DNA of 64,000 nt from a virus, in IMG/VR virus record IMGVR_UViG_3300031539_000007, positions 49,044 through 113,043 of that record. One strand, given 5' to 3'. Both the position numbers and the translations under genes were made by a program. This document shows positions 13,018 to 34,688 of the stretch, one piece after another. Below the pieces are notes generated by a model, which did no database searches, had not been told where the DNA came from, and saw nothing but the letters and a program-made list of their open reading frames with translations. Within the stretch, counting starts at the first letter, position 1; every line of letters begins with the position of its first letter.

Positions 13018-14383
13018 TGCCATTCTCCTTGTCATACGACGCACATTGTTCCCAAACCTTCAGCATCTCTTCTCCGTGAGGCATGAAGCTACCCGAAATA
13101 CGGGAGCTACCCATTCTACGGCCCGTCACATCAAATAGCGCTCGATTCACTTTGTCACGCCCCCATCCATCTTGGACTGCATACAGTGCCACAACGCTTT
13201 CGGCATTGTCAAAGGGCAGCGGGGCTGGCCCCGGCTTAGTATCTAATATGTCCGCCCTGTTGAACGCGGGCCAAGATTTCATGCGTGGCTCGCCGCCCCC
13301 CAGCGCTTTGGCCTGGGCTTCTGATGTGTATGCTATCAACATCCGCGTTGTCAGTGTGTCGGTACACAAGTACGCATCGCCTGAGCCTGAGAGGAAATCT
13401 GCTCGCGGGCGCACATCGCCAACAATAGCTTCGCTCTCAAAGCGGTCGGACACATTTAAGGCCAGACGTACACCAAACTGCGCGCGTGTACCTTGTCCGC
13501 TATCGCCGAACATCTTTTGCTTGGGCGACTGCGTAGCGCATAGTAGGAAGATGCTCACTTCGCGACCCATCTTCGATAGTAGAAATAGGAGGGAACTCAC
13601 CGTGTCGTCAGCCATCGTGAACATATCAAAGTCGTCAAAGATGATGTACAGCGGCGAGAACTTCTCGGCGTCCTCGTCTGTGGCGTGGTTGCGCTCGCAC
13701 ATCAGACGATAGCACCATCCCAGAGCGTTGAGCACGCTTGCGCCATCTGTCGCCATCGGCCCTACCTGTCGCGGGAGTCCATTGATTACACCCAGCCCGC
13801 GGTTCCCTTTCCCGTTCAGGAGCACGAACTCGGCGTCTTCTGCAAGCACAAGCTGCCGCAGAATTGTCCAAGTGGCTACTGTCTTTCCAGAGCCGGTGCG
13901 CCCGCCGACAAGAATGTGGTGTGCTATTTGCTGGTTGAGTGTAACCACAACTGTCCCGCCACGCCCATCAATGCCGAGCGTGAAGCTGCGCCCCTTACCA
14001 GGTCGCTGCGATAGCTCTTCAAGGCCAATGTGCGTTGTTTGTAACTCTATAGGCCATTGCGCCTCAATGTGCAGGCGTTTGCCGCTCCAATCAACGAGCG
14101 GTTCAATAGATGATACATCGTCTATCCAGGTGTCAGGGAATAGCCCGCGCGCCTTTGCGTTCTTCTGGGCGCTTAGGGCTTGGTACAAACGGTCGCCAGC
14201 GGTTCCTGGCTTAACACTGACAATCCCTGAGCGTGGCCCAGGGATGTACTTCAACTTCTCAATTGCAATTGGCGTTCCGCTATTAAAGGCGGGGTCTGAA
14301 TAACACGCCGCCCACAACGCTGCGCCCAGACTGCCGAGCAGCTTCTCGCGCTCTCTGAGTAAGAACCTACGATCCTGTGGCAT
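13001..14383 (-). CDS. FtsK/SpoIIIE/TraB-like DNA translocase ATPase
   Basis: About 460 residues. Walker A GGRTGSGKT, Walker B YIIFDDFD, and the FLLCATQSP motif define an FtsK/HerA-type motor. No N-terminal membrane segment is present; instead the genes upstream encode multi-span membrane proteins (14367, 14763, 15486, 16878). A C-terminal region after residue 395 could be a small winged helix (VQDGWGRDKVNRALFDVTGR). It should pump double-stranded DNA, for segregation, packaging-like movement or cell-to-cell transfer. The MPQDRR start (ATG 14383) is preferred to TTG 14398. Confidence 0.85.
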   Translation of the reverse strand: MPQDRRFLLREREKLLGSLGAALWAACYSDPAFNSGTPIAIEKLKYIPGPRSGIVSVKPGTAGDRLYQALSAQKNAKARGLFPDTWIDDVSSIEPLVDWSGKRLHIEAQWPIELQTTHIGLEELSQRPGKGRSFTLGIDGRGGTVVVTLNQQIAHHILVGGRTGSGKTVATWTILRQLVLAEDAEFVLLNGKGNRGLGVINGLPRQVGPMATDGASVLNALGWCYRLMCERNHATDEDAEKFSPLYIIFDDFDMFTMADDTVSSLLFLLSKMGREVSIFLLCATQSPKQKMFGDSGQGTRAQFGVRLALNVSDRFESEAIVGDVRPRADFLSGSGDAYLCTDTLTTRMLIAYTSEAQAKALGGGEPRMKSWPAFNRADILDTKPGPAPLPFDNAESVVALYAVQDGWGRDKVNRALFDVTGRRMGSSRISGSFMPHGEEMLKVWEQCASYDKENGNELVE

Positions 14384-14753
14384 TCTCTTCCACAACAATA
14401 TCTGGAACTGGAATCACTTTCGCCGTTTTGTTCTTGTCGTACACAATCACAACGAGTGCCGTCAACGTAACTACGGCGACAAAAGTTGTAATAGTAGCTA
14501 CCACAATCAACAAATAGTACGACTGTGTTGCCAGTTGCGTGTCAGTGTACACTGCATTCGCACCGGCGTTCATGAGACTCGCCTGGGCATCAAGCACGGC
14601 GCGATTCCCCTTGGCAACCTCTAGCGCCGCCTGTTGCTGGGCGCGACTCGCCGCAGCGTTATCACGAATGACACCCATGCCGCCGCCGAGGACAAGTACC
14701 AGCACAGCGACTACGACCAAGGCGATTACAATTGTTACAGGGCTGTCATTCAT
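14367..14753 (-). CDS. Two-span membrane protein
   Basis: 128 residues: TM1 about 6-27 (glycine-rich end), an Ala/Gln-rich helical stretch (SRAQQQAALEVAKGNRAVLD), then TM2 about 80-107 and a short cytoplasmic tail that overlaps the FtsK-like start. The coupling suggests a membrane partner of the translocase. No family recognised. Confidence 0.75.
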   Translation of the reverse strand: MNDSPVTIVIALVVVAVLVLVLGGGMGVIRDNAAASRAQQQAALEVAKGNRAVLDAQASLMNAGANAVYTDTQLATQSYYLLIVVATITTFVAVVTLTALVVIVYDKNKTAKVIPVPDIVVEENATGS

Positions 14754-16708: not shown

Positions 16709-16881
16709 GATTGAACAATAGCAGCGATCTCCACCAGTTGCTCTGCCGTGAAATGCACCACGCCGTTCGCACCCTTGATGTTCACGAACACCGCGCCATC
16801 AGCAGCGACGGCGAAGAACGCTACGCACTCACCGGCGTCGTTCAAGATGTTGATGTATGGACTGCTGAATGAGAGTTTCAT
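16699..16881 (-). CDS. Unknown 60-residue protein
   Basis: Start overlaps the upstream stop (ATGA). Short beta strands (FFAVAADGAVFVNIKGANGV) and a C-terminal helix; the stop codon lies within the 16691 hairpin. No family recognised. Confidence 0.75.
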   Translation of the reverse strand: MKLSFSSPYINILNDAGECVAFFAVAADGAVFVNIKGANGVVHFTAEQLVEIAAIVQSYS

Positions 16882-17645
16882 AGCGCAACCCCAGCAGACC
16901 GCAATAGTTTCAGTTTGTTCGCCACGGTTGTCCGACTGTAACCAGAGATTTCTGCTAGTAAAGACTGGGTTGCATCTGGATGCACAGAGATTGCATCGAA
17001 CACCGCTTTGGTTACACTGTCCAGCAATAAGTTGTCAAGAACTTGCTTTTGTAAATCTTCAACACTTGGTTGCGCAACCTCTGGTTTCGTTTCTCGCCTG
17101 GAAGGTTTCGAGCCATCGGCATCTTCTTTCTTGCGGTTGCGTTCGCGCATCTTGAATTCATGCTCACCTTCATTCCACTTTTCCCATCTTTCATCAAAGC
17201 TCGCATTGTAAAAGCCGAACTCCATTATGCCAGCATAGAAGTCAACCCCTGAGCACAACAGAAGCACGAGCGGCCCGTTTGCGCGCACCCACAGCAACCA
17301 CCATGCTGGCATATCGGCTAATGACACATAGACGACGAATAGATTTCCGAGTGTGGCGGCAAGTGAAACAAACAGCCCTACCCAGTCGAAAGCGTTGGTT
17401 TCATTGGCCCTAGACTTACGAAAAACCTCTGCCGCCGCCGCAAGCGTACCCGCCTCCCCGCCGAACACCATCAGCGCACTACCAAGAGCGTGCCCGTTTA
17501 GTTGTGCCATCCCTGGCACGAAAGCGTTGTGGGCATAGACAACCACGCCGACGCTATAGACGATGGCTGGCAACAGCAATGCCCACCACGCGAATCCGTG
17601 GCGTTTGGGTTCTGGCTTCCAGTATTCAAGTTCTATATTCGGCAT
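16878..17645 (-). CDS. Four-span membrane protein with C-terminal HTH (DUF2637/Spd-like)
   Basis: 255 residues from ATG 17645 (AGGAG at 5-base spacing). Four hydrophobic segments fill residues 18-150. A charged linker follows, and the last 50 residues form a winged-helix-like HTH (FDAISVHPDATQSLLAEISG YSRTTVANKLKLL, shown split). This layout is that of DUF2637 spread proteins of actinobacterial conjugative elements, although identity cannot be proven by eye. It would bind DNA at the membrane, beside the FtsK-like motor. Confidence 0.75.
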   Translation of the reverse strand: MPNIELEYWKPEPKRHGFAWWALLLPAIVYSVGVVVYAHNAFVPGMAQLNGHALGSALMVFGGEAGTLAAAAEVFRKSRANETNAFDWVGLFVSLAATLGNLFVVYVSLADMPAWWLLWVRANGPLVLLLCSGVDFYAGIMEFGFYNASFDERWEKWNEGEHEFKMRERNRKKEDADGSKPSRRETKPEVAQPSVEDLQKQVLDNLLLDSVTKAVFDAISVHPDATQSLLAEISGYSRTTVANKLKLLRSAGVAL

Positions 17646-17667
17646 ACTCACTCCTGCTCAAAGACGA

Positions 17668-22565: not shown

Positions 22566-22967
22566 TCACGTGAAAACCGCACTCGCCCTTCCCTCAACCG
22601 TGTACGCATTGCTGTTCTTCGCCCTCGCCCGTGCCCCAAATTCGTACACGTAGCTACCATGATATACCCTGGTGTTGAATGTGCGAAACCCTGTGAATGC
22701 TTTGTTACCAACAATTCTTAGAACTGGAAACAGTGCATTCTCTGGACTCATCAAAGGATTGTGTACCCTGATAATATCCCCTACTTGCAATCTGTCCGCC
22801 CCCCCCCTTGTCTTTAGTATAAGCAACCTAAGCACCTCGTAATCAGCATAGTCCCCCGCCGTCCCATACGCATCAAGCCACTGTAGCTCTTCGTCGTCCC
22901 TGTCGTATGGCGTTCCGTCACCACCCTCTTCGGCTATCGCTATCATCGGGTCGTCGTAGTACATCAT
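22566..22967 (-). CDS. Unknown 133-residue protein, possibly two overlapping products
   Basis: From ATG 22967 (G-run RBS) the frame has an acidic head, then passes in frame through an internal copy of the promoter/RBS cassette (22799) and continues with a beta-rich domain (LQVGDIIRVHNPLMS). A TTG at 22790 sits 8 bases after the internal G run and could start a separate 74-residue protein. One fused gene or two nested genes are both possible. Family unknown. Confidence 0.65.
   Translation of the reverse strand: MMYYDDPMIAIAEEGGDGTPYDRDDEELQWLDAYGTAGDYADYEVLRLLILKTRGGADRLQVGDIIRVHNPLMSPENALFPVLRIVGNKAFTGFRTFNTRVYHGSYVYEFGARARAKNSNAYTVEGRASAVFT
22799..22821 (-). promoter_or_regulatory. Promoter/RBS cassette, copy 2 (inside a frame)
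   Basis: Minus strand: TATACTAAAGACAA followed by nine G. Same order as copies 1 and 3 but lying inside an open frame. The G9 run is also a candidate slippage or sequencing-error site. Confidence 0.5.
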
Positions 22968-22973
22968 CCGTTA

Positions 22974-22994
22974 CCCCCCTTTGTCTTTAGTATA
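22974..22994 (-). promoter_or_regulatory. Promoter/RBS cassette, copy 3
   Basis: Minus strand: TATACTAAAGACAAAGGGGGG, 6 bp before ATG 22967. Upstream GGTTTAGACG parallels GGTTTTCACG before copy 1. Confidence 0.6.
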
Positions 22995-23101
22995 CGTCTA
23001 AACCGCACCCGCCCGCCCGCCTGAGTTCTCCGTGTGTACCCGTTAGGCGTAAAACCGCCGCTTTCCGCGCGCCTGTGCGCCCAGGCAGGCAGTCTCCCAC
23101 C

Positions 23102-23129
23102 AGTATAGCACGTACAAGTGTAATGTCAA
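23102..23129 (-). promoter_or_regulatory. Strong sigma70 promoter, minus strand
   Basis: Read leftward: TTGACA, 16-bp spacer starting TTACAC, TATACT. Nearly the same as the 15705 promoter. It drives the 22.97 kb leftward operon and bounds the origin-like region. Confidence 0.88.
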
Positions 23130-23444
23130 ATGAGATTCGTGGATTTGTTGGTGGCGAGATGACCGTATTACGCAGGGCAAGTTTTCGCTCAATGATTCGA
23201 CGTGGGGGAGGTGGCCCGTACAATTGTACATCTTCAGACTATATGCATTATGACAAGTAATCGGACATATTCGGACATTCTACGTATTGTGGCACATCAT
23301 AGCATAGCATATCATACTATATTCTAACCACAACCGCATGGTCAAGCACTGCAAAGTTGGATTGTTAGAATTAAAGCACGCTCATAAGTTATTGCACAGT
23401 TAGAATCTCATCCGCCAGGTGCATCTCACGCCCGCAGAGCCACC

Positions 23445-23550
23445 CTTACGCGTAAGTGACTTACGGCGTGGGTTGTAATTGACTTACGCAGGTGTGTGTA
23501 ATTGACTTACGTATGCTGGCGCTTACGGCGCTGGTTGTAATTGGCTTACG
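23445..23550 (+). repeat. Iteron-like TTGTAATTGACTTACG array
   Basis: CTTACG cores at 23445, 23460, 23483, 23506, 23522 and 23545. The longer unit TGTAATTGACTTACG is seen at 23474 and 23497, and with one change (TTGGC) at 23536. GACTTACG starts at 23458, 23481 and 23504, an exact 23-bp period, as in iterons of plasmid and phage origins. The first core is part of the palindrome CTTACGCGTAAG. Confidence 0.75.
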
Positions 23551-23765
23551 TGTGGTGGTTGTGGGTACAATTGCAGCATAGGCAACGCGCCACAAGGCCC
23601 TACAATGCCACTGTGGTGCATTCTAAGGCGCTGGCGTGGCATACAGGCATGTTGCTATGCTATCGCTCCACAAGCAGTGTGGGCTCGATTTGCAATTTAG
23701 TTTGAGCGTGCTTATCGGTGGTGCTCAAAACAGATTGCGTTTCATTATAATGGAAACGAGGAGTC

Positions 23766-23787
23766 AAACCACTACCGGTAGTGGTTT
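23766..23787. repeat. Perfect 22-bp palindrome around ACCGGT
   Basis: AAACCACTACC and its complement, centred on CCGGTAG. A shorter copy follows at 23856. Likely a dimeric protein site near the origin and the rightward promoter. Confidence 0.7.
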
Positions 23788-23855
23788 TGCAATATAGGCT
23801 CCCGTGGTCATAACTTTCGGCATGCTTTTAAGGTCGAGTTTCAAAAGTCGCTTAC

Positions 23856-23871
23856 CCACTACCGGTAGTGG
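23856..23871. repeat. Second ACCGGT palindrome
   Basis: CCACTACCGGTAGTGG, 16 bp perfect, 69 bp after the end of the first copy and 80 bp before the -35 of the rightward promoter. Confidence 0.7.
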
Positions 23872-23951
23872 TTCGGCGATTCACAAACCCTAGATGTGGT
23901 GGCCCTGCAATACAATGTCGCAAGGCAACTGCCATAGCAATACTAGCGTGT

Positions 23952-23979
23952 TTGACATCTTCGCAGCGTCGCTTATAGT
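23952..23979 (+). promoter_or_regulatory. Strong rightward promoter
   Basis: TTGACA (23952-23957), 16-bp spacer, TATAGT (23974-23979). It heads the 24-40 kb small-gene operon, where no comparable promoter is seen until 44744. Confidence 0.88.
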
Positions 23980-24025
23980 TAGAGTAGAAATTTTGATGAG
24001 TCGAGAGAGGCAAGGGGAGCAAGCA

Positions 24026-24274
24026 ATGGCAACGATAGATAGAACCAGAGGCAAGGCAGCGGGTAAGGGCAAGGCAAGCAAAGCAAACCCGGTGGTTACC
24101 ATAAGTAATGAGACTGTAGCATACTGGCAAGGGCGTTTAGATGATACACTGCGCACAACTGGCAAGCACACCTTCTCACGTGGCGAGAAGCAAGGGATAA
24201 AAGAAGATCGCTTCTTTACCCGGTCTGGTGAAGATAACTATCGTAGGCCATTCGGTACATTCGCACAGGAGTGA
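24026..24274 (+). CDS. Unknown 82-residue basic protein
   Basis: ATG 24026 with GGGGAG at 6-base spacing; a longer in-frame start lacks an RBS. Lys/Arg-rich N-terminus (RTRGKAAGKGKASKANP) and a polar C-terminus. First gene of the rightward operon, so possibly an early DNA-binding protein (inference from charge and position). Confidence 0.75.
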   Translation: MATIDRTRGKAAGKGKASKANPVVTISNETVAYWQGRLDDTLRTTGKHTFSRGEKQGIKEDRFFTRSGEDNYRRPFGTFAQE

Positions 24275-24863: not shown

Positions 24864-25361
24864 ATGTTTCAAAATCAGGTGCGTCAACTAAAATCCGTAA
24901 CAAAAAACGTCAACAAAGGCCAGGCGAAAGCCGCTGTTATCTTTGCGCAAGTCAAAACGCAGTTTCATGACGTGAAAAAGGCCAACCGGGTCAAGTGGGA
25001 GTTCTCCAATTTCTCCGAGTTTGTCACGGCAACCGGTTGGGCTCCCTCCACTGCTTACCAGTTGGCCCGTTGGGGGGCTAACGGTGGTGAACTCGCAGCA
25101 TTAGCAGTGTACGGAATCCAACACATGCAGGCGTTTGATACTGTTCGCGAGTGTACCACGCTTGACGCTTTCCTGGAAAAGTGTGAAGAGTTCCCGAACC
25201 CTTCGGATATTGGTGAACTGAAGTCATGGGCAGAAAGTGTGCAAGGCAAGGTTACAGATAGGGAAAGCTTGGAGCGCGACATCGCCAATCTGGAGAAGTC
25301 TATCGTGAATTTTACCGCGAAGCTTGCCGAAAAGAAAGCCCTACTAGCGGCCCTCCAGTAA
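24864..25361 (+). CDS. Unknown 165-residue helical DNA-binding-like protein
   Basis: ATG with AGGAG. Basic helical N-terminus, a central HTH-like stretch (SEFVTATGWAPSTAYQLARW) and a C-terminal coiled coil (about 125-165). It resembles phage proteins that combine a small HTH with a dimerisation coil. It lies right before the structured 25.4-25.7 kb region and the palindrome array and is one candidate for their regulator. No family certain. Confidence 0.75.
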   Translation: MFQNQVRQLKSVTKNVNKGQAKAAVIFAQVKTQFHDVKKANRVKWEFSNFSEFVTATGWAPSTAYQLARWGANGGELAALAVYGIQHMQAFDTVRECTTLDAFLEKCEEFPNPSDIGELKSWAESVQGKVTDRESLERDIANLEKSIVNFTAKLAEKKALLAALQ

Positions 25362-25428: not shown

Positions 25429-25454
25429 CACGGGCACATGATCATGTGCCCGTG
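25429..25454. repeat. Perfect 26-bp palindrome
   Basis: CACGGGCACATG followed by its exact complement-inverse around ATCAT. As RNA it is an 11-bp stem; as DNA a large dimer site. Two more hairpins follow (about 25456-25492 and 25500-25524). Confidence 0.75.
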
Positions 25455-25561
25455 GTCATTCTATGCTATGGACTACGAAAGTGTTCTATGGTATAGAATG
25501 GCGCATGGTATTGTACCATGACGCGCGCCTGCAAGGGGAAAAAATTCTAGTCACTATAAAA

Positions 25562-25710
25562 CCCTTGTGCAAATTGGAGTGCATGACTTGTATATGGTCG
25601 GGCATGCAAGCGATTGCATGCCTAGATACTAGGGGGAGCGATGTCCGCCGATTAAGTCATGACAGTTGACCGGCAAATTTGACGGTCATGCATTGCAATT
25701 TGCACAAGGG
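25562..25710 (+). ncRNA. Structured RNA candidate with 15-bp closing stem
   Basis: P1: CCCTTGTGCAAATTG (25562-25576) with CAATTTGCACAAGGG (25696-25710). P2: CATGACTT (25582-25589) with AAGTCATG (25654-25661). P3: GGCATGCAA/TTGCATGCC (25601-25622) capped by GCGA, a GNRA loop. P4: GACCG/CGGTC (25668-25687). An alternative to P2 exists: TGCATGAC (25580-25587) with GTCATGCA (25685-25692). No reading frame fits it. It sits directly after a degenerate copy of the array palindrome, in the place of a gene. Function unknown. Confidence 0.65.
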
Positions 25711-25735
25711 GATTTTCTGGTAAAAGGGGAATGCC

Positions 25736-25939
25736 ATGAGTATGCTGCTCGATCAGTACTTTCCAAGGGATAACGGCGAAGCTTCTGTGATTATTGCCGA
25801 AGCATGCCACGGGCAATTTTCTACGCTCGGAAGGTTCAAGGAAGCGAAAAGGCAAGGGCTGGGCATGCCAAAAACCGTAAAAATTCAGGGGAGTCTGCCC
25901 ATGCCTGTGAAAAAGTACCGGGCAATCCGGTACAATTGA
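25736..25939 (+). CDS. Unknown 67-residue basic protein
   Basis: ATG after AAAAGGGGAATGCC, 25 bp after the structured element. Basic C-terminus (MPKTVKIQGSLPMPVKKYRA). First coding cassette of the array. No family recognised. Confidence 0.7.
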   Translation: MSMLLDQYFPRDNGEASVIIAEACHGQFSTLGRFKEAKRQGLGMPKTVKIQGSLPMPVKKYRAIRYN

Positions 25940-25988
25940 CTGAAAATTCTAGTCACTAGAAAGTCACGTCAAAAAAGGAGCTATTAAA

Positions 25989-26219
25989 ATGAATACGTCG
26001 TACAACATTTCCAGCATGGAAGCACTCCGCGAAAAGAAAAAGAATGGATACGCGAAAGCCATGACTGCTTGGGGAGTCCCCGAATGGCTGCGCTTGCAGT
26101 TCTGCCAGCAAATCCGCGACACACACGATTATGGCGATGTGTGCGTCATCATGGGGAAAATTGACGCCTACTCGAACGCCGCAGGGCTGAGAGCATTTTA
26201 CGAATATTCTAGTGACTAG
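25989..26219 (+). CDS. Unknown 76-residue array protein
   Basis: RBS AAAGGAG at normal spacing. Mixed helix (SMEALREKKKNGYAKAMTAW). The last codons TCT-AGT-GAC-TAG lie in the 26207 palindrome, so the protein ends SSD. No family recognised. Confidence 0.8.
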   Translation: MNTSYNISSMEALREKKKNGYAKAMTAWGVPEWLRLQFCQQIRDTHDYGDVCVIMGKIDAYSNAAGLRAFYEYSSD

Positions 26220-26231
26220 AAAGGGGGAAAA

Positions 26232-26528
26232 ATGTGTCACGTAACAAACCATGTGATGGAGGCGCACGAGCGTCATCCTTTACTCAGGAAGATCATGAGC
26301 AAGGAAAAGTTCGCCTTGCTTATCAGTATAGTGTCACAGGAAAATTTTACGTGCGATATTGCCCTTGCCGTGTACGATTGCGGCGAAATTCTTTTGAATC
26401 CCACGCAGGATGAGCGTGGGAGATTTGTTGTTCTTATCGTGCGCAACAACAAAATTGTGTGCGCATGCCTATCTCAGCGTCTCGACGCGCGCCACTTGCG
26501 CGTCGAAAAAGTTGTGAAAATATTCTAG
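26232..26528 (+). CDS. Unknown 98-residue array protein
   Basis: Starts 10 bp after the 26207 palindrome; stops at the first TAG of the 26523 palindrome. Mixed alpha/beta with a DERGRFVVLIVRNNKIVCAC strand pair. Function unknown. Confidence 0.78.
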   Translation: MCHVTNHVMEAHERHPLLRKIMSKEKFALLISIVSQENFTCDIALAVYDCGEILLNPTQDERGRFVVLIVRNNKIVCACLSQRLDARHLRVEKVVKIF

Positions 26529-26552
26529 TCACTAGAAAAAGGAGAGCTTGTA

Positions 26553-26852
26553 ATGACTATGTTTATGAAGTTTTCGCGGGGTGGAGTGTTTGAAGCGGCG
26601 GAGTTTGGCGCATACAACATGATTCCGACCGGTGAACAGGTAGCTCCACCTGTCGCGGGTGACGTTGTTTTTGTGTCCAACTATGTACCCTCCTGCGACT
26701 TTAGCGGGCAGGTAGGGAAGATGGCCGCCGCAGAATCAAGAGGTGCGGCGGAGTGGGCCGCAAGTCACGGGCTGCGGCTTGTATTCCGGGGGTTCCCCGG
26801 AGCGAACATACGTAACGCTGAGGGGTGTATGCCAGCGTTGCTTTCCGTCTAA
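26553..26852 (+). CDS. Unknown 99-residue array protein
   Basis: AAAGGAG before ATG. Beta-rich N-terminus, then a helix (MAAAESRGAAEWAASHGLR) and a Gly/Phe stretch. No family recognised. Confidence 0.75.
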   Translation: MTMFMKFSRGGVFEAAEFGAYNMIPTGEQVAPPVAGDVVFVSNYVPSCDFSGQVGKMAAAESRGAAEWAASHGLRLVFRGFPGANIRNAEGCMPALLSV

Positions 26853-26910
26853 AAACTTTCTAGTCACTAGAAAAAGTCTAGTGGCATCAAAACCCTTAAG
26901 GAGTATTAAA

Positions 26911-27171
26911 ATGACTATCCAACGCACCAAGACCGAAAAGAAGTCCGGCACATCGTTTTCCGTCGGGGTGAATATCATCCTGGCAGGCAGTAAGGCCATG
27001 ACGCCTGAGCAACAGGAAAAAGCCTTGACCGTGGCGAAAGTCCGCGTCCTTATTGTCGATGCTGACAACCCTAAGAACGTCCTGGTCGATGAGACCGCAC
27101 CGGCACGCGAATTTTCCACGGGAAGCGTGGGCTATGGGCTGAATATCCGTAGCGCAGAATTCAAGCAGTAG
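26911..27171 (+). CDS. Unknown 86-residue array protein
   Basis: ATG 26911 with AAGGAG. Lys/Thr-rich start, beta strand (GTSFSVGVNIILAGSKAM), then a helix. A GCCCTCG/CGAGGGC hairpin follows the stop. Function unknown. Confidence 0.78.
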   Translation: MTIQRTKTEKKSGTSFSVGVNIILAGSKAMTPEQQEKALTVAKVRVLIVDADNPKNVLVDETAPAREFSTGSVGYGLNIRSAEFKQ

Positions 27172-27177
27172 TGGTGT

Positions 27178-27199
27178 GCCCTCGTGCCACAGCGAGGGC
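27178..27199 (+). promoter_or_regulatory. Intercistronic hairpin
   Basis: GCCCTCG, a loop, CGAGGGC; 7-bp GC-rich stem 7 bp after a stop codon and 9 bp before the 27209 palindrome. No T run, so more likely an mRNA stability or processing element than a terminator. Confidence 0.5.
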
Positions 27200-27241
27200 G
27201 ATCAATTATTCTAGTGACTAGAAAATTTTAGGAGGATCGGG

Positions 27242-27430
27242 ATGGAATACACTATCGAGTTCAAGGAACACCTGGCGAAGAGTCTGGCGGGGCATATCGC
27301 CAGCAGCGCGGCCACTGGGCCGTACTCCGAGGTGCATTGTGTTGTCTGCGGGCGTGTGGGCGTAGTCGCCTACAACTACGCGGTCGAGAATCCCGGCGTG
27401 TGGGCCTGCGCCTACTGTAACACGGGCTAG
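27242..27430 (+). CDS. 62-residue zinc-finger-like array protein
   Basis: AGGAGG RBS. CVVCGRVGV (near 33) and CAYCNTG at the C-terminus form a four-Cys zinc site. Function unknown; a strong hairpin (27440-27467) follows. Confidence 0.8.
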   Translation: MEYTIEFKEHLAKSLAGHIASSAATGPYSEVHCVVCGRVGVVAYNYAVENPGVWACAYCNTG

Positions 27431-27439
27431 AACTCTTCT

Positions 27440-27467
27440 CCTGCCCATCATCCTCGTGATGGGCAGG
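27440..27467 (+). promoter_or_regulatory. Strong intercistronic hairpin
   Basis: CCTGCCCATCA / TGATGGGCAGG, 11-bp stem with a 6-base loop, 10 bp after a stop. Related in sequence to hairpins after the genes ending at 40124 and 40360 (shared CTCTTCCCCTGCTCATCAC). Confidence 0.6.
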
Positions 27468-27521
27468 CACGGAGAGAAAAAGGCGAAAATTATTCTAGTG
27501 ACTAGAAAGGAGAGGAGAGCT

Positions 27522-27749
27522 ATGAAAATTCAAACACTGTACGACCTGCGGGAACTGACAGGTTTTGTTAGCGGGACGGACTTGCAAGATATGTTCCACG
27601 AAATCTTGGGGGAGATGTCCCCAAGTGGCAATTGTGAAATAGGCGCCGCCGCACTTGCCAGTAACGATGTGGGCAAAGAGGCTTTGCGATTGCTAGCGGC
27701 CCCACTGGTCGACGTCATTGAGTCAATTATGACATACGGAATGTCTTGA
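27522..27749 (+). CDS. Unknown 75-resid. array protein
   Basis: ATG 27522 after AGGAGAG, 14 bp past the 27493 palindrome. Helical with LRLLAAPLVDVIESIMTYGM at the C-terminus. No family recognised. Confidence 0.78.
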   Translation: MKIQTLYDLRELTGFVSGTDLQDMFHEILGEMSPSGNCEIGAAALASNDVGKEALRLLAAPLVDVIESIMTYGMS

Positions 27750-27787
27750 AAGCTAATATTCTAGTGACTAGAAAAGGAGTGTTTGTT

Positions 27788-27985
27788 ATGGATAAAATTT
27801 ATCTCGCCTACTACATCAGTAGGCGTGGGCATCACAAAGAAATCTTATACGTTGGGACAGACAAAAACGCCGCAATATCTCGCGTTGAAAGCTTCTGCGG
27901 CAGTAACATGTATGCCCAGGAATTCCTGGGCTGTGTGGAGACATGGACGGCGGGGCGACGCATCCTGCTGGAAAGGGTTGTCTGA
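27788..27985 (+). CDS. Unknown 65-residue array protein
   Basis: ATG 27788 after AAAGGAG. Compact alpha/beta (KIYLAYYISRRGHHKEILYV). Stop is 3 bp before the 27989 palindrome. Function unknown. Confidence 0.78.
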   Translation: MDKIYLAYYISRRGHHKEILYVGTDKNAAISRVESFCGSNMYAQEFLGCVETWTAGRRILLERVV

Positions 27986-28003
27986 ATATTCTAGTGACTA
28001 GAA

Positions 28004-28072
28004 TTCCCTGGCCGCCACGAGCATAGCGCCGTGGATCACGCTTGTAGTCATCGGCGCGAAAAGTGCCGGGGA
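28004..28072. other. Gene-less spacer between two palindromes
   Basis: 69 bp between palindromes 27989 and 28073, too short for a credible gene and without an RBS-start pair. The sequence CCACG...CGTGG could form a weak hairpin. It may be the remains of a lost cassette. Confidence 0.5.
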
Positions 28073-28106
28073 TTCTAGTCACTAGGAATCTTTTGAAAGG
28101 AGAATC

Positions 28107-28250
28107 ATGATTACAATCAAAGTGGATGGGATTATCACGGTCGATACGTTTTCGTTCGAGGATGCGGTCGATATGATCGTAGAGGCGCTGGAAAAGTACG
28201 GCGTCGAGATTATGGCCGTGTATGAAAAAGTTGAAAATTCTAGTGACTAG
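28107..28250 (+). CDS. Unknown 47-residue array protein
   Basis: ATG 28107 with AAAGGAG. Beta-hairpin then helix (FEDAVDMIVEALEKYGVEIM); ends SSD with the stop inside the 28238 palindrome. Compact ferredoxin-like half-fold is possible. Function unknown. Confidence 0.75.
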   Translation: MITIKVDGIITVDTFSFEDAVDMIVEALEKYGVEIMAVYEKVENSSD

Positions 28251-28271
28251 AAAAAGTCACGAAGGAGTATT

Positions 28272-28571
28272 ATGAACAAATGTTATACACAGAAGCGGTA
28301 TTCGACATGGTATGGGGCGGCGAGGTCATTGCCGAAGAACCTGAACTCGTCGCTAGGCCCGCCCCACTTTTCAGTGGGCGATAGGGTTATACAAAAGCGC
28401 CCGGTGTGTGGCGAACGGCTAACCGGCACGATTATATCAGTCGTTTATCCGCCACTTGTACTTGACGGCGCGCAACTATTAGTGGCGGGCTACGAGGTGC
28501 AATGGGATAATGGCGACCACTGCGCAAGCGTGCGCGAGCCGTATTTGACCAAGATAAATTCTAGTGACTAG
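28272..28571 (+). CDS. Unknown 99-residue array protein (beta-barrel-like)
   Basis: Leader GTCAC-GAAGGAGT before ATG. The core (FSVGDRVIQKRPVCGERLTG...YEVQWDNGD, shown in part) looks like a small SH3-like barrel as in many phage DNA- or RNA-associated proteins. Ends SSD in the 28559 palindrome. Confidence 0.75.
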   Translation: MNKCYTQKRYSTWYGAARSLPKNLNSSLGPPHFSVGDRVIQKRPVCGERLTGTIISVVYPPLVLDGAQLLVAGYEVQWDNGDHCASVREPYLTKINSSD

Positions 28572-28592
28572 AAAAAGTCACGAAGGAGTAAC

Positions 28593-28796
28593 ATGTACAA
28601 AACCGTTGGGGACATCCCCGAAGATTATGTCCTGGTGCAGACAGACCATGAGGTTCAATCTGTACTTGAGTACATCGGCGTAACCGAAAATTATCCTTAT
28701 GTGTTTGTCAAACTTGACGAAAGTGGCGCTGATTATCTGCACGTTTATGGGTGCTACAGACTGTACCTTGGCGCTCCTGTTTACCAGGAACTATAA
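28593..28796 (+). CDS. Unknown 67-residue array protein
   Basis: Same GTCAC-GAAGGAGT leader as the previous gene. Tyr- and acid-rich beta protein. Followed after 11 bp by another gene with no palindrome between them. Confidence 0.78.
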   Translation: MYKTVGDIPEDYVLVQTDHEVQSVLEYIGVTENYPYVFVKLDESGADYLHVYGCYRLYLGAPVYQEL

Positions 28797-28807
28797 GGAG
28801 TATTATA

Positions 28808-28975
28808 ATGTGGCATTTTACAGAATCACTTGTTGGACAAAGAATGCTGGTAAAAGAAACACGCGCCGAAGTCTTTTTGACGGGCCGCCGCGTCTATGAC
28901 GGCAGTGTGTATATTTACGAGACCGACGCGGGCAACTTCCTGGGGGAAGAACTGTGCCGCGTTGGGTCAATTTAA
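28808..28975 (+). CDS. Unknown 55-residue array protein
   Basis: TAAGGAGTATTATA before ATG 28808. Beta-rich (AEVFLTGRRVYDGSVYIYET). Its stop directly abuts the 28976 palindrome. Confidence 0.75.
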   Translation: MWHFTESLVGQRMLVKETRAEVFLTGRRVYDGSVYIYETDAGNFLGEELCRVGSI

Positions 28976-29010
28976 TTCTAGTGACTAGAAAAAAGTCACG
29001 AAGGAGCAAC

Positions 29011-29226
29011 ATGAAAAACATTGCTACGGTTAAGGACGCGCTGCATAACGCAGTGCTTGAAAAGTCTGACTACGCTCGCGGTATTGTCGTGGGCGTGGTG
29101 GCTGCCATTATGGGGCAAAAGGGCTGCTTGTTTAAGACCGCCCTCAGAGAAGTCAAGCAGATGAAACCCGCAATCCATATCGAGAATCTGCCAGAATGCT
29201 GGCGTGAAGACTGGATGAAACTCTAG
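29011..29226 (+). CDS. Unknown 71-residue helical array protein
   Basis: GTCAC-GAAGGAG leader, ATG 29011. Helical with a small hydrophobic segment (GIVVGVVAAIMGQKG). Stop is the first TAG of the 29221 palindrome. Confidence 0.78.
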   Translation: MKNIATVKDALHNAVLEKSDYARGIVVGVVAAIMGQKGCLFKTALREVKQMKPAIHIENLPECWREDWMKL

Positions 29227-29258
29227 TCACTAGAAAAAAATCTCAAAAGGAGAATACA

Positions 29259-29846
29259 ATGGCTGCACATATTTTGACTGGTATCAAACAAACGATTAAG
29301 ATGCTGCGCGAAAACCCCGAAGCGGCGAAACCGCACATCGTCTGCGCCTGTGATTTGTCCTGCTGGACTGAAGACGACACTCATGTGTGGGGAAATCTCT
29401 ACGACTGGACACAAGGGAGGCTCGCCACAAGCGCGCTCATCGAGTATCTTGAATTCCAGGTGTGGCACTTCTGGGATTTGTACTACAAACTTGGCGAACC
29501 GTATACTCGCGAAGAGTGGAATCTGTCACGCTTCCACGGGCTTGAGGCACTCGCAAAATATCGCGACGAAGAAGACTCCAGGACACTGGCTATGCTTTCC
29601 GCAGAGAAAACATACATCCGACCAGGCGAAAAAGTCCTGATGGAATGTGCTTACTCTGAGGCTGCAATGCACCTTGGCGTGGCTGGCAAAGTGATGACTG
29701 TCAAGCTGCTTGAAACCGAATACCCAACGGCGCAACTATACCGCCGCAACGGGGAAGAGAAAAGCTTCCCTATCACTTACTCTGAGGCCGGGTTCTACCA
29801 GGACGAGGGTGGATTCTACTACTACCCGAAACGTTCTAGTCACTAG
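29259..29846 (+). CDS. Unknown 195-residue array protein
   Basis: AAAGGAG RBS. Helical first half rich in Trp/Glu and a beta-rich C-terminal part (VAGKVMTVKLLETEYPTAQL). Ends SSH in the 29834 palindrome. No family recognised. Confidence 0.82.
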   Translation: MAAHILTGIKQTIKMLRENPEAAKPHIVCACDLSCWTEDDTHVWGNLYDWTQGRLATSALIEYLEFQVWHFWDLYYKLGEPYTREEWNLSRFHGLEALAKYRDEEDSRTLAMLSAEKTYIRPGEKVLMECAYSEAAMHLGVAGKVMTVKLLETEYPTAQLYRRNGEEKSFPITYSEAGFYQDEGGFYYYPKRSSH

Positions 29847-29853
29847 AATAAAT

Positions 29854-29875
29854 GTCTACTCATCTCTGAGTAGAC
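29854..29875 (+). promoter_or_regulatory. CTACTCA-type leader hairpin
   Basis: GTCTACTCA, loop TCTC, TGAGTAGAC: 9-bp perfect stem between the 29834 palindrome and the AAAGGAG of the next gene. Both kinds of element are stacked here. Confidence 0.75.
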
Positions 29876-29886
29876 AAAGGAGCAAT

Positions 29887-30435
29887 ATGACTACTGTTAA
29901 AGTTATCAACACTCGCTACAATCCACGCGGCGCGAGCGTCGTCGTGGAAGCAAAGTTTGACCGCTGGACTTCGTATCTGGAAGTAAGCCACGACCAGCCA
30001 TGCGGGTATAACTATCGGCGGATGCGTCACGAAACTGACCCGCTTGCCGATTGGGTACGCCTTGAAACCGCCGAGCGCGACATCACAGCGGAAGGTGTGC
30101 GCCTGGCGAAAGACGCCATTATCGTGGCCGACAACTCTATGGAAGAGGCGTGCCGCTGGTTCAAGTACTCGCAGCTATACGAAACAATGCAGGCAGTCGT
30201 CACGGAGACCGTTAAAAACTACCAGGATGATTTCTACCTGCACGATTGTACACGTCTCGGAATGGCGCACCCATTCCCCGAAGTGCTCCGCTGGTACGTT
30301 CGTGAGAGCGGAACGTTTTTGTTCTTCGGAGAAGAGGTCGGCGAATGGGAATGTGCTGTGCGCAAACAGTGGCCCGACGCCCGCATATTCCGCTATACCT
30401 CAGAGGACGGACTGGCGGAAATTTCTAGTCACTAG
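29887..30435 (+). CDS. Unknown 182-residue array protein
   Basis: ATG 29887 after the hairpin and AAAGGAG. Beta-rich N-terminus (KVINTRYNPRGASVVVEAKF), helical middle, Trp-rich C-terminus. Ends SSH in the 30423 palindrome. Function unknown. Confidence 0.82.
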   Translation: MTTVKVINTRYNPRGASVVVEAKFDRWTSYLEVSHDQPCGYNYRRMRHETDPLADWVRLETAERDITAEGVRLAKDAIIVADNSMEEACRWFKYSQLYETMQAVVTETVKNYQDDFYLHDCTRLGMAHPFPEVLRWYVRESGTFLFFGEEVGEWECAVRKQWPDARIFRYTSEDGLAEISSH

Positions 30436-30448
30436 AAAGGAGATTGCG

Positions 30449-30583
30449 ATGACCGACAAAGAGATACTTGAAAGGTTATGTGCCATGCTCAACGGTATTA
30501 CTAAAAAGTTCGGGGTAACACTAGCGGTTGTGGAGATAAAAGGCACGATTTACTTTTTCCCTCAACTATCTTCTAGTGACTAG
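30449..30583 (+). CDS. Unknown 44-residue array protein
   Basis: ATG 30449 after AAAGGAG. One helix (DKEILERLCAMLNGITKKFG) and a beta hairpin. Ends SSSD in the 30571 palindrome. Confidence 0.72.
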   Translation: MTDKEILERLCAMLNGITKKFGVTLAVVEIKGTIYFFPQLSSSD

Positions 30584-30588
30584 AAAGT

Positions 30589-30616
30589 TTTAACAGTGTG
30601 GTGCGTCACTGTTAAA
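30589..30616 (+). promoter_or_regulatory. Intercistronic hairpin
   Basis: TTTAACAGTG / CACTGTTAAA, 10-bp stem with an 8-base loop, just after the 30571 palindrome. No T run. Confidence 0.5.
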
Positions 30617-30656
30617 TACGCACCGATTTCATTCATTCAAATAAAGGAGACTTACG

Positions 30657-30920
30657 ATGACCTGCATAGGAACAACCGCGACAACCATAGCGAAAAACTC
30701 TGTGACGTATCACGAAACGACAGTCGTTGCATTTAGCAGCGGCACAATCACCCTCGACAGCGGGGGATGGAGAACTGTGACGACCAAGAAGCGAATGAAC
30801 CAGGCCAGCACTGAATTCGGCCTTGGATACAGCGTCTTTCAGAAAGACTTCGGCTGGTTTGTTGACCTTCCGAATGGCGAGACCGTTGACTTCAAAGACG
30901 GGATGACTTTTAGTCGGTAA
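30657..30920 (+). CDS. Unknown 87-residue beta-rich array protein
   Basis: AAAGGAG before ATG. Thr-rich beta strands (TTVVAFSSGTITLDSGGWRT), FGLGYSVFQKDFGWFVDLPN. The pattern recalls small phage proteins of unknown role. Followed by the 30925 palindrome. Confidence 0.78.
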   Translation: MTCIGTTATTIAKNSVTYHETTVVAFSSGTITLDSGGWRTVTTKKRMNQASTEFGLGYSVFQKDFGWFVDLPNGETVDFKDGMTFSR

Positions 30921-30953
30921 AAGATTCTAGTCACTAGAAAAAGGAGCATTACG

Positions 30954-31646
30954 ATGGCTAAGGAAAAAGTTGTCAGAATTGGTACTGTTGATTATTACGG
31001 GAAAAGGGTTAGCGTGTTCTGCGAAATCGGCGTCAAGAATGGCGAGCTATCAATCACCGGCGTCGTCGGGCCAAAGCGAAACGGTGACGCGGAGGGCGGG
31101 TGCGGGCAAATAGACCTGAGCGAATATTCAGGGTGGGAATTCGCTGCTGGATGGGACAAAGAAACACTTGACAAATTCACGGACGTGTGGGCAAGATGGC
31201 ACTTGAACGACATGCGCCCTGGCTGTGAGCATCAGCGTGATTGGGATACTTCAGAGAAGATTGGAGTCATCCAATACACATATACCGACCTATACACAAC
31301 GCTCTCCAAGATGGAGAAAACTATGCCGGAACGTCTAACATCACTAGACAAAGAAAATCTTGCACTTGGCAAGAAAGCGTTTCGCGCCTTCCTAGGATAC
31401 GGTAACGGCACACGGGGAGACGTGCTTGAAGCATGCGAAGCAGGACTACTCAGGACGTGTGGCATCGAGGAAAAGCTTGCTGGATGGGTATACCCAACAC
31501 AGCACGAGAAAGGCTTACTCACAAAGCCATGCCCCGTATGCGGTTACAAGTACGGTTCTGCTTGGCTCAAAGAAGAGTTACCACAGGACGTGTTTGACTT
31601 CATTGACAATTTACCGCACACTGACATCGCATATCCGTGGCGATAA
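30954..31646 (+). CDS. Conserved 230-residue phage protein with C-terminal CPxCG
   Basis: AAAGGAG before ATG. Beta-rich N-terminal half (VFCEIGVKNGELSITGVVGP), helical middle, and a C-terminal KPCPVCGYKYGSAWL motif found in conserved phage hypothetical proteins. The two visible Cys of the C-terminal motif might share a metal with upstream Cys/His. Function unknown. Confidence 0.82.
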   Translation: MAKEKVVRIGTVDYYGKRVSVFCEIGVKNGELSITGVVGPKRNGDAEGGCGQIDLSEYSGWEFAAGWDKETLDKFTDVWARWHLNDMRPGCEHQRDWDTSEKIGVIQYTYTDLYTTLSKMEKTMPERLTSLDKENLALGKKAFRAFLGYGNGTRGDVLEACEAGLLRTCGIEEKLAGWVYPTQHEKGLLTKPCPVCGYKYGSAWLKEELPQDVFDFIDNLPHTDIAYPWR

Positions 31647-31675
31647 TTCTAGTCACTAGAAAATAAAGGAGCGAT

Positions 31676-32026
31676 ATGAACGGGTGGACTTACAATTACG
31701 GGGAAGAGTACGACGAACGTGCGCAGACTTCCATACTCGGTGAACCAAGCCGATTGATGATGTGCCTAACACACGACGAGCTGTGCAATATGCAGACGGC
31801 AATCGTCGTCGAAACGTGGGAACACTTCGTTGGGCGAGACGCGGCTGGTAGCAAGCGCCGAAAATATCACGCCGAGTTCGACGAGAAGGAGCGCAAGCTG
31901 GCGGGTAAACTGCACACCAGGTTCTACCGCTGGCATCTTGTAACTGGCGTGCCGCAGAAAGTCGTTATGTCTGCACGCACCATCAGCTTCGTCGAGAGGC
32001 TGGTAGCGTTCGCGGCGACAGTGTAA
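31676..32026 (+). CDS. Unknown 116-residue array protein
   Basis: AAAGGAG before ATG. Helical, charged (KRRKYHAEFDEKERKLAGKL), with TISFVERLVAF at the end. Possibly DNA-associated from charge only. No family. Confidence 0.8.
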   Translation: MNGWTYNYGEEYDERAQTSILGEPSRLMMCLTHDELCNMQTAIVVETWEHFVGRDAAGSKRRKYHAEFDEKERKLAGKLHTRFYRWHLVTGVPQKVVMSARTISFVERLVAFAATV

Positions 32027-32060
32027 ACAATCTAGTCACTAGAAAAAAGGAGCTATTAAA

Positions 32061-32738
32061 ATGACCGAGTTACAGGATTTGACCAAGAAGGCTTTGGTTC
32101 GTATGGTAGAAGTGCTAGAAGCGTCCCTGAAAAGCGCGCTGGATAACTCTGCTTTCGCGTGGCGTCAACATAACGCACTGCGCGTCGATTTGCAGCAAGA
32201 ACAAAGCAAGACGCACAGCCTTGACATTGAGTGCAAGCTGGCATTCGCGCTCTCTGAAAACCGCAGGTGGGAAGATGTTGCCGCCGACATCGTGGAACAG
32301 GAACGCGAGATGTGGCACAATGCCTCACTGCTCCACACGAGCATCGACGACGACGAATTAGGGGACAAGTTCGAGACGGCGCTAGAGCTATACGTCCGTG
32401 AATGGGTTGGCGAGAAAGAGCGAGAGATTCTTGAAAAGTTTGGGCGCAGCGTCTCTGTCTATCAATACGGACGGGGCGGGGCAACCATTTCTATAGATGG
32501 CTTCTACAGCGAAACATACCGGCGTGGTGCAAGCGATGCGAATATCCGCTACTTCGATAACGACGACCTGGACGAAGAAGAATTGATCGCCTATTACAAC
32601 GAGGACGTTCAAACCCTTGCTATCCTGGAATGGCTTGACGAGAAGGTGCGCGAAACAGTACGCGGCTTGCCCGAATGGTGGGTAGGAGAACGCGAGTATT
32701 GGACTGACGGCCTCTACACACTGTACCCGCAGTGCTGA
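32061..32738 (+). CDS. Unknown 225-residue coiled-coil array protein
   Basis: AAAGGAG before ATG. Long N-terminal coiled coil (about 1-90), then acidic segments (FDNDDLDEEELIAYYNEDVQ) and a Trp-rich end. No enzymatic motif. Function unknown. Confidence 0.8.
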   Translation: MTELQDLTKKALVRMVEVLEASLKSALDNSAFAWRQHNALRVDLQQEQSKTHSLDIECKLAFALSENRRWEDVAADIVEQEREMWHNASLLHTSIDDDELGDKFETALELYVREWVGEKEREILEKFGRSVSVYQYGRGGATISIDGFYSETYRRGASDANIRYFDNDDLDEEELIAYYNEDVQTLAILEWLDEKVRETVRGLPEWWVGEREYWTDGLYTLYPQC

Positions 32739-32810
32739 GGGAACGTGCTTGGCGCACTTGAAATGATGGCGTTGTAATTTTCTAGTGACTAGAACAAAGG
32801 AGAACAAGTA

Positions 32811-33242
32811 ATGTTATCAGAAAGCAAGTACAAAGAACTCCGCGAACGGATAGACAAGCATTACGCTTGGCTACAAGCGCGCGATTTCAAACCATACAAA
32901 ACAGAAGAATGCCCACAGGTATTGCGTGTGACGAACGAGGAGTATGGTGCTGTAGAAGTCTATGAATGGCACAATGACCCGCCAGACAAATACTTCGCTT
33001 ACGTGAAGGTCGGGTGCGTGTATGTTGATGGTGTCGGGACATACGAGGCCACGGTTACAACATGGATGGGAGATACCATCGGACACGCTGGGCTTGGATG
33101 TAAATATCGCTCCAACTTCGGTGACATCCGCGTCCCCATTTCTGTAACTGGGACTAACGACAAGCACTATTACGGAACGTACTACAAGTCAGCGGGTGAT
33201 TATTGCCGCCTGACTGCATACAAGGAGGCCCGCAATGGGTAG
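32811..33242 (+). CDS. Unknown 143-residue array protein
   Basis: AAAGGAG after the 32780 palindrome. Helical start (ESKYKELRERIDKHYAWLQA) followed by beta strands. Its end overlaps the next gene by 8 bp. Confidence 0.8.
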   Translation: MLSESKYKELRERIDKHYAWLQARDFKPYKTEECPQVLRVTNEEYGAVEVYEWHNDPPDKYFAYVKVGCVYVDGVGTYEATVTTWMGDTIGHAGLGCKYRSNFGDIRVPISVTGTNDKHYYGTYYKSAGDYCRLTAYKEARNG

Positions 33243-33642
33243 GGGTGTGGCGTTTCCGCACAGCGACGGCGCAGAGCAAATCATTGTAGACGTGCCATTC
33301 TTTGATGATGACGAATATGGCGAAGAGAAATCGTTGTGGTTTGACGACCTGAGATACCGTGTTAAACACACGCTGCCAGATTCATTCTACTTCGATGATG
33401 GCGTGGGGTGCTTCTGCTGGGAATGGAGTAGCTGCTTGCTCAAAGTGTCCCTACACGGCGAAGACACACTGGCACACATTTACATCGAAGCGCAAGAACA
33501 AGACGAGTTCCAGCATCACAAGAATCTCGCTTGGAATCACCTTGATAACCTTTACAAGAAAATCGGGAAAAAGTTGCAAGACTACGGGTATGAGTTGCGC
33601 CAGCGCACAAGCTCGTGGACAACTGGGCATCTGGATTTCTAG
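33235..33642 (+). CDS. Unknown 135-residue array protein
   Basis: Coupled to the previous gene (8-bp overlap, AAGGAGG inside it). Acidic N-terminus, Trp/Cys middle (GCFCWEWSSCLLKV), helical C-terminus. Stop is the first TAG of the 33637 palindrome. Confidence 0.8.
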   Translation: MGRGVAFPHSDGAEQIIVDVPFFDDDEYGEEKSLWFDDLRYRVKHTLPDSFYFDDGVGCFCWEWSSCLLKVSLHGEDTLAHIYIEAQEQDEFQHHKNLAWNHLDNLYKKIGKKLQDYGYELRQRTSSWTTGHLDF

Positions 33643-33651
33643 TCACTAGAA

Positions 33652-33676
33652 AGTGTGGGGCGTGCGACTCCACACT
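33652..33676 (+). promoter_or_regulatory. Intercistronic hairpin
   Basis: AGTGTGG / CCACACT, 7-bp stem with an 11-base loop, starting at the last base of the 33637 palindrome and 11 bp before an RBS. Confidence 0.45.
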
Positions 33677-33698
33677 GTCATTCACAGAAAGGAGACAC

Positions 33699-33872
33699 AT
33701 GGTGTATGTATGTTTGTCCGGTACGCTCTACGAGAACAACGTGTGCGGTGATGTGTTTGTGCATACCGTATACACAAGAGAGGAAGACGCGATAGAATGG
33801 AAGGAATACTGCGACCGTACATCACAGAGGTTGGAACGTGTGTACTGGGTTGCGGCAGTTTCTAGTCACTAG
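33699..33872 (+). CDS. Unknown 57-residue array protein
   Basis: AAAGGAG before ATG 33699. Beta-rich with charged middle (HTVYTREEDAIEWKEYCDRT). Ends SSH in the 33860 palindrome. Confidence 0.75.
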   Translation: MVYVCLSGTLYENNVCGDVFVHTVYTREEDAIEWKEYCDRTSQRLERVYWVAAVSSH

Positions 33873-33890
33873 AATAAAAGGAGACTCGTA

Positions 33891-34478
33891 ATGGATACGC
33901 AAATTAAACGTGTTGTGTCTAGCAGTAGTTGTGCCACGGTATACGAACTCGAATGTGGATTACGCCTACGCTATTTTATTATTGTCACAGGGATACCTGC
34001 CCTTGAGTACGACGACCATACATTCCCGAAAAGATTCGATGTCATCGACAAATATAATGTAGCGTGGGACAGAGCGCTCAAGCGGTATCCGTTCCAGAAG
34101 GACGGAGAACACCCAAACGTCGAAGAGATTGGCGGGCAAGCGACAATCGACGAATACATTGCAGAAACCTATTCAGAGAAATTGCTCAGCGATATTCCGT
34201 TACCAGAAAGCACACCGCCCAAAAAAGAAGCACTGCCAATGTTTAGCAATCCGACCCTAGCCAACCGATTCAGAAAAGATTTTGATATGCCACTGCTAAC
34301 ATTCACCGACCGCTTAATGACACGTATCCGTGGTTCATTCTCGTTTGATGTCATAGCGTTCGATGGATACTGCCACGAAGCCCTGGGGTATAGCGAGGAC
34401 GAGCACGGCAGCCTCAACGATTTCATCACGGCGAAGTCAGGGAAGGATATGGCAGATTTCTTACGAGGTCTGCTGTAG
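33891..34478 (+). CDS. Unknown 195-residue array protein
   Basis: AAAGGAG before ATG. Beta-rich first third, Pro/Lys linker near 110 (PLPESTPPKKEALP), helical C-terminus (LNDFITAKSGKDMADFLRGL). Followed by a small gene without a palindrome. Function unknown. Confidence 0.8.
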   Translation: MDTQIKRVVSSSSCATVYELECGLRLRYFIIVTGIPALEYDDHTFPKRFDVIDKYNVAWDRALKRYPFQKDGEHPNVEEIGGQATIDEYIAETYSEKLLSDIPLPESTPPKKEALPMFSNPTLANRFRKDFDMPLLTFTDRLMTRIRGSFSFDVIAFDGYCHEALGYSEDEHGSLNDFITAKSGKDMADFLRGLL

Positions 34479-34493
34479 CAAAGGAGTACCGCT

Positions 34494-34667
34494 ATGGAAA
34501 TTATTAGGGTGTGCAAGCAAGGATACAACCCCATCGAATTGCGCAACAACGATGGGGTGTGGGAGTACGCCGTCGGAACGTATCTGGATGGGAGCAAGCA
34601 CTGGGTGGCGATACCCCTATTAGAAGAGATTATCTTGCAGACCATCGAAGAATACAAATGTGTCTAG
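34494..34667 (+). CDS. Unknown 57-residue array protein
   Basis: AAAGGAG before ATG 34494. Beta strands then a helix (IPLLEEIILQTIEEYKCV). Stop is the first TAG of the 34662 palindrome. Confidence 0.75.
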   Translation: MEIIRVCKQGYNPIELRNNDGVWEYAVGTYLDGSKHWVAIPLLEEIILQTIEEYKCV

Positions 34668-34688
34668 TCACTAGAAAGGAGACTAACA

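Follow-up and report, generated by a model that had tools for sequence, protein, structure and literature searches.

The question raised by this phage genome is what function is served by a short array of direct repeats in a long spacer between divergent genes, which the earlier note had taken for a probable iteron-type replication origin. The stretch of DNA analysed here (the window, 64,000 nucleotides) represents bases 49044-113043 of a 113,043-bp IMG/VR virus record, and the other 49 kb of the record were also analysed, positions there being given as negative window coordinates. Both ends of the record have a 138-bp direct repeat in common (99.3% identity), suggesting a probably complete genome that is either circular or terminally redundant. 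It was assigned to a tailed phage owing to the presence of genes for a portal, major head protein, clamp, helicase, single-strand DNA-binding protein (SSB), ribonucleotide reductase (RNR) and recombinase, the large terminase gene being assigned from ATPase motifs in an alignment and not from a PHROG match. The window also carries tRNA-Thr(TGT) at 45073, tRNA-Trp(CCA) at 47302 and tRNA-Pro(TGG) at 51862. No relatives of the helicase were found in scans of viral contigs, and a host search via terminase relatives in bacterial genomes yielded none that was confirmed. All that is claimed below for the array is computational, and none of it rests on experiment.

In silico analysis of the array established that GACTTACG recurs at 23458, 23481 and 23504 in exact 23-bp steps, and that the core CTTACG is present on the + strand at 23445, 23460, 23483, 23506, 23522 and 23545 (core-to-core steps of 15, 23, 23, 16 and 23 bp), in full agreement with the coordinates and cores noted earlier. 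Counted from CTTACG, the units extend over 23460-23482, 23483-23505, 23506-23521 (the shortened unit of 16 bp) and 23522-23544, and a CTTACG at 23545 closes the array. Three array units represent near-identical semi-palindromic 15-mers of the form TGTAATTGRCTTACG (Table 1), and as the 15-mers are near-identical while the intervening bases differ, selection on the 15-mers is suggested. In these units an identical left half, TGTAATT, takes the place of the palindromic CGTAAGT, and three of the four array dyads are degenerate in one half. The overlapping palindromes CTTACGCGTAAG and CGTAAGTGACTTACG, situated at the left edge, had not been described in the earlier note.

The repeats are beyond chance by three measures. 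CTTACG occurs six times in 106 bp as compared to 0.02 expected from its genome frequency, and in Markov simulations of the spacer a 106-bp stretch with at least five occurrences of one hexamer, whichever it was, arose just once in 2000 runs. The lag-23 self-match of the array (z = 7.65, 40-bp window) was matched by none of 300 simulations and by none of 208 other segments of the same length. With a 60-bp window the observed value was equalled by six other segments, and the array is therefore called the strongest intergenic array and not the sole repeat; its TRF score of 84 is the highest of any intergenic array in the genome, and both genome occurrences of GTAATTGACTTACG lie inside it. A plain mismatch count of the array 14-mer over the window, at up to two mismatches, gave 8 matches against 4.1 expected, which alone is not significant. 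Another near-tandem pair in intergenic DNA (22 bp x 2.0, TRF score 49) is present at -10263 to -10223, near another divergent gap (on the L003/L004 side), and represents a competing origin candidate.

Table 1. Features of the array, of the spacer around it and of the genes considered with it (window coordinates).
Feature	Position	Strand	Remarks
Tandem array, 23-bp unit CTTACG-GCGNTGGTTGTAATTGR	23445-23550	+	about 4.5 units, one shortened to 16 bp
Perfect 12-bp palindrome CTTACGCGTAAG	23445-23456		left array edge; made of array half-site
Perfect 15-bp palindrome CGTAAGTGACTTACG	23451-23465		overlaps CTTACGCGTAAG palindrome; same half-site
Putative iteron 1, TGTAATTGACTTACG	23474-23488	+	
Putative iteron 2, TGTAATTGACTTACG	23497-23511	+	23 bp from iteron 1
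Half-site, core CTTACG only	23522-23527	+	after the shortened 16-bp unit
Putative iteron 3, TGTAATTGGCTTACG	23536-23550	+	
Gene-free divergent spacer holding the array	22968-24025		1.06 kb; from ORF lists and a simple hexamer-score gene caller
Leftward sigma-70-like promoter TTGACA-16-TATACT	23102-23129	-	11/12
Least stable spacer DNA, candidate unwinding element	23222-23326		top 0.16% of the genome's 100-bp windows; p = 0.09 for a random region of the same length
Weaker leftward promoter-like site TTGACC-18-TATAGT	23316-23345	-	10/12; about 100 bp from the array
Perfect 22-bp palindrome AAACCACTACCGGTAGTGGTTT	23766-23787		upstream of rightward promoter; possible regulator site
Perfect 16-bp palindrome CCACTACCGGTAGTGG, second copy	23856-23871		CCACTACCGGTAGTGG common to both spacer palindromes
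Rightward sigma-70-like promoter TTGACA-16-TATAGT	23952-23979	+	11/12
Candidate binding protein, small, HTH/coiled-coil-like	24864-25361	+	165 aa; syntenic homologue in G007
Beta-type sliding clamp	8435-9511	-	replication context
SSB	55489-55902	+	PF00436, E 2.9e-25
DnaB-like replicative helicase	56263-57702	+	phrog_19, E 1.4e-22
FtsK/SpoIIIE-like ATPases (two)	13001-14398; 40860-42164	-; +	
Protein with hydrophobic N-terminal half (predicted)	16878-17651	-	weak C-terminal winged-helix/ParB-HTH match

The spacer is flanked by genes at 22566-22967 (- strand) and 24026-24274 (+ strand). Its earlier description as the only long gene-free divergent region holds within the window, while the rest of the genome contains two shorter divergent gaps of ~700 and ~550 bp. 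Strong outward promoter-like sites are located 316 and 402 bp from the array, which lies outside the transcripts expected from them, and the DNA beside the array is only moderately AT-rich. The palindromes at 23766 and 23856 are likewise additions to what had been reported before; a search of Rfam returned a single match spanning both, to a miRNA family, which scored far under the gathering score and was taken as chance.

Two syntenic relatives, G007 (119 kb; head protein 54%) and G008 (93 kb, possibly incomplete; head protein 63%, terminase 64%), were found via the head protein, and both of them (n = 2 relatives) possess a long gene-free divergent gap at the syntenic place, as judged by gene order on either side. 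The gap of G008 harbours six 11-bp TGTTAACNNNT repeats (TGTTAAC) at 2243-2306 with a TRF score of 76, in addition to a pair of GTGACANNTGTCAC-like dyads spaced at 23 bp, and that of G007 harbours three 10-bp repeats, which are marginal (reached by 0.02-0.04 of simulations). In G007, the gap also contains the least stable 50- and 100-bp stretches of the entire genome (p = 0.006), the weak-DNA value for the G008 gap being p = 0.10. G007 has outward promoter-like sites on both sides of its gap, and G008 only on the side that faces RNR. The array pattern was absent from five RNR-bearing records, the pattern of 23-bp-spaced pairs was absent from the viral contig collection (in which records very near the window were possibly excluded), and ten relatives yielded scattered two-mismatch matches to the array pattern that were no better than a reversed-pattern control; comparison of the spacer with phages and of the array with plasmids revealed no DNA similarity. 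A fixed location with changing repeats, in this small sample of two, fits an origin that is exchanged together with its initiator, and also a fast-changing control region.

Taken together, the array is an element of a familiar kind with an unfamiliar sequence, most likely the docking site of a phage protein that starts replication and less likely a gene switch. We assign a probability of about 0.48 to its being the initiator-binding part of an iteron-type phage replication origin with a putative initiator; the weights given to this assignment and to the operator function discussed below are judgements and were not computed. The origin proposed in the earlier note thus stands as the best single reading, as semi-palindromic tandem units are unique in the genome, the spacer is outside the expected transcripts and the place is gene-free in the relatives, but it received no support from GC skew, DnaA boxes or a known initiator. 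Also counted in favour of an origin are the rank of the array as the strongest intergenic one, its distance from the strong promoters, the helicase, SSB and clamp encoded by the genome, the synteny of the G007 and G008 gaps, the array of G008 and the position of the least stable DNA of G007, while counted against it are the lack of conservation of the repeats in the relatives, the marginal array of G007, a weak-DNA signal that, taken for this genome by itself, falls short of significance (p = 0.09) and the 22-bp near-tandem pair elsewhere in the genome. If the array does function as an origin, a phage-encoded initiator would occupy the 15-mer direct repeats along one helix face (23 bp being about two turns) and would melt nearby weak DNA, the melted DNA would allow the phage DnaB-like helicase to load, and the forks would then be extended by SSB, the clamp of the phage and probably the polymerase of the host. 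The overlapping palindromes at the left edge could bind the initiator as a dimer and regulate it.

GC skew, which the earlier note had put forward as a check, was rejected as origin evidence since it tracks gene orientation. The skew minimum at 23.1 kb is not a lone turning point: the cumulative curve reverses near -13.0, 8.0 and 60.6 kb as well, and the reversals coincide with switches of gene orientation. Third-codon-position skew of the coding strand is close to zero in every block (-0.042 to +0.045 in the six blocks; -0.05 to +0.12 in sub-blocks), and no support for an origin is obtained from GC skew. The absence of a recognisable Rep gene was borne out, as searches for Rep_3, RepA_N and the DnaA C-terminal domain (DnaA_C) were negative in G000, G007 and G008 (the control for RepA_N being weak), nothing of this kind is recognisable beside the array, the genes neighbouring it gave no Pfam match, and a Pfam scan of 93 small window proteins revealed no known initiator. 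DnaA-box-like sites were not enriched, with two at one mismatch as compared to 1.56 expected, and DnaA boxes are not present in every iteron origin.

Two proteins had been named as possible initiators. The product of the 24864 gene may be a reasonable, if tentative, candidate as G007 encodes an HTH/coiled-coil homologue of it in syntenic position (E = 0.00038 by phmmer against the six-frame ORFs of ten genomes; E = 0.005 in pairwise comparison). Counted rightward from the gap, each of the two genes is the second one called, and the G007 homologue gives a weak HTH_23 match. No homologue was found in G008 and no relatives in the viral contig scans; the protein is modelled at low confidence (62.6, pTM 0.35) as all-helical, its C-terminal helix being long. 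Sequence and fold searches lent no support to the 58896 product (ORF start 58827), as sequence searches gave no function and its predicted structure (mean pLDDT 62, pTM 0.51) had no PDB match at E <= 0.001; its homologues adjoin the replication block in G007, G008 and G009. Just past the 24864 gene, at 25429-25454, is the perfect 26-bp palindrome CACGGGCACATGATCATGTGCCCGTG, the longest in the genome.

The main rival reading, possible if doubtful, is that the array instead represents a set of operators for a phage transcription regulator, putative dimers of which would occupy the 23451 dyad and the half-conserved dyads 23 bp apart. The assembly would act either on the pair of outward early promoters from a distance, by looping or as a platform for activation, or on the weaker promoters nearby without such a detour. 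Lambda-type operators are spaced 23-24 bp, and several dyads of the array are about 23 bp apart, the best of its units being a perfect 15-bp palindrome. The site is also between divergent promoters, with the weaker leftward site ~100 bp off, other perfect palindromes of the spacer resemble regulator sites, and the core AGTSACT at 23455 is common to the dispersed start-associated palindromes described below, with only five AGTSACT altogether in the genome outside the block of those palindromes. Operators of the lambda type overlap their promoters, however, whereas the array overlaps neither strong promoter and, at 310-400 bp from them, is too far away for simple repression by overlap. The left half TGTAATT, identical in three units where a dyad would have CGTAAGT, suggests an asymmetric site, and as this genome has neither an HTH_3 match nor a tyrosine integrase (HTH_3 matches in G007 and G008 being weak and below cut-off), a lambda-type switch is unlikely.

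The start-associated palindrome TTCTAGTSACTAGAA occurs in 27 copies, of which 21 are perfect and 6 carry a single mismatch, all within 25545-38365, mostly just 5' of AGGAG and a start codon and confined to the early rightward operon, whereas chance would give about one match in the window with up to three mismatches allowed. G007 has a different 17-bp palindrome, TGTAACATSATGTTACA, with 10 perfect copies, several of them just upstream of gene starts (examples at record positions 25988, 27657, 29025, 31391 and 34620, L018-L023); the same test revealed no start-associated palindromes in G008, and a search of the viral contig collection did not return the exact combination of TTCTAGTSACTAGAA and AGGAG. 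As the start-associated sequences of Cluster K are at starts and not palindromic (PMC3203893), and the 17-bp palindromes of Cluster O are not closely linked to starts (PMC4351075), TTCTAGTSACTAGAA seems to combine traits of both. The AGTSACT core common to the TTCTAGTSACTAGAA palindromes and the array palindrome is no more than suggestive, and it would be surprising if a new initiator family, comprising the 24864 protein and its G007 homologue, recognised AGTSACT-centred palindromes both in the array and in the 27 dispersed copies, thereby tying replication start to early expression in one lineage.

The lack of sequence conservation in relatives would agree with another role for the array (packaging, a recombination site or late-gene control) or with a functionless decaying repeat, but such readings are unlikely, given that three units are near-identical over 15 bp with differing bases between them and that the terminase gene is ~30 kb from the array. 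Plasmid iteron arrays can also act as centromeres and the genome encodes two FtsK/SpoIIIE-like proteins, but it is highly improbable that the array serves a plasmid-like phage for segregation or as a centromere-like element, bound by a ParB-like protein or used by FtsK-like translocases, as no ParA-type ATPase (PF13614) was detected in this genome, G007 or G008 (positive controls in 14 of 14 genomes) and the sole ParB-HTH-like match is weak, C-terminal and in a protein with a hydrophobic N-terminal half. Should the array be an origin, it would point to an uncharacterised initiator in a phage lineage of ~93-119 kb, known here from metagenome contigs alone, and the wholesale replacement of repeats between relatives at a fixed place would make this lineage a good system for joint origin-initiator exchange; an operator array would be an ordinary early-region control site.

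With respect to known systems, the array resembles lambda-type immunity operators in having dyads ~23 bp apart between divergent promoters, and differs from them in that its sites are clear of the strong promoters, three of the four dyads are half-degenerate, and HTH_3 matches and an integrase are lacking. In Cluster O mycobacteriophages, repeats beside AT-rich DNA were proposed as an origin from sequence alone (PMC4351075), and the present array, which has no demonstrated sequence resemblance to those repeats and only moderately AT-rich flanks, is alike in being a repeat-type phage origin proposed on the same basis. Unlike the iteron origins of pPS10, RepA_N plasmids and the phage satellite PLE, it lacks a recognisable rep gene next to it, a cognate initiator from a known Rep family (in such origins mostly encoded close by) and DnaA-box enrichment, and the inverted repeat derived from its half-site (CTTACGCGTAAG, CGTAAGTGACTTACG) is not at a rep promoter. 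Like these theta plasmids and PLE, however, it comprises tandem semi-palindromic noncoding repeats with an adjoining inverted repeat and a period of about two turns, within the range of about 17-23 bp of the direct repeats by which an iteron origin is recognised. The iterons of RepA_N systems are described as semi-palindromic direct repeats (PMC7145576), and RepA of pPS10 binds iterons as monomers and its inverted-repeat operator as dimers (PMC4857107). An origin is favoured by the match between these published descriptions and the direct repeats and inverted repeat of the same half-site found here.
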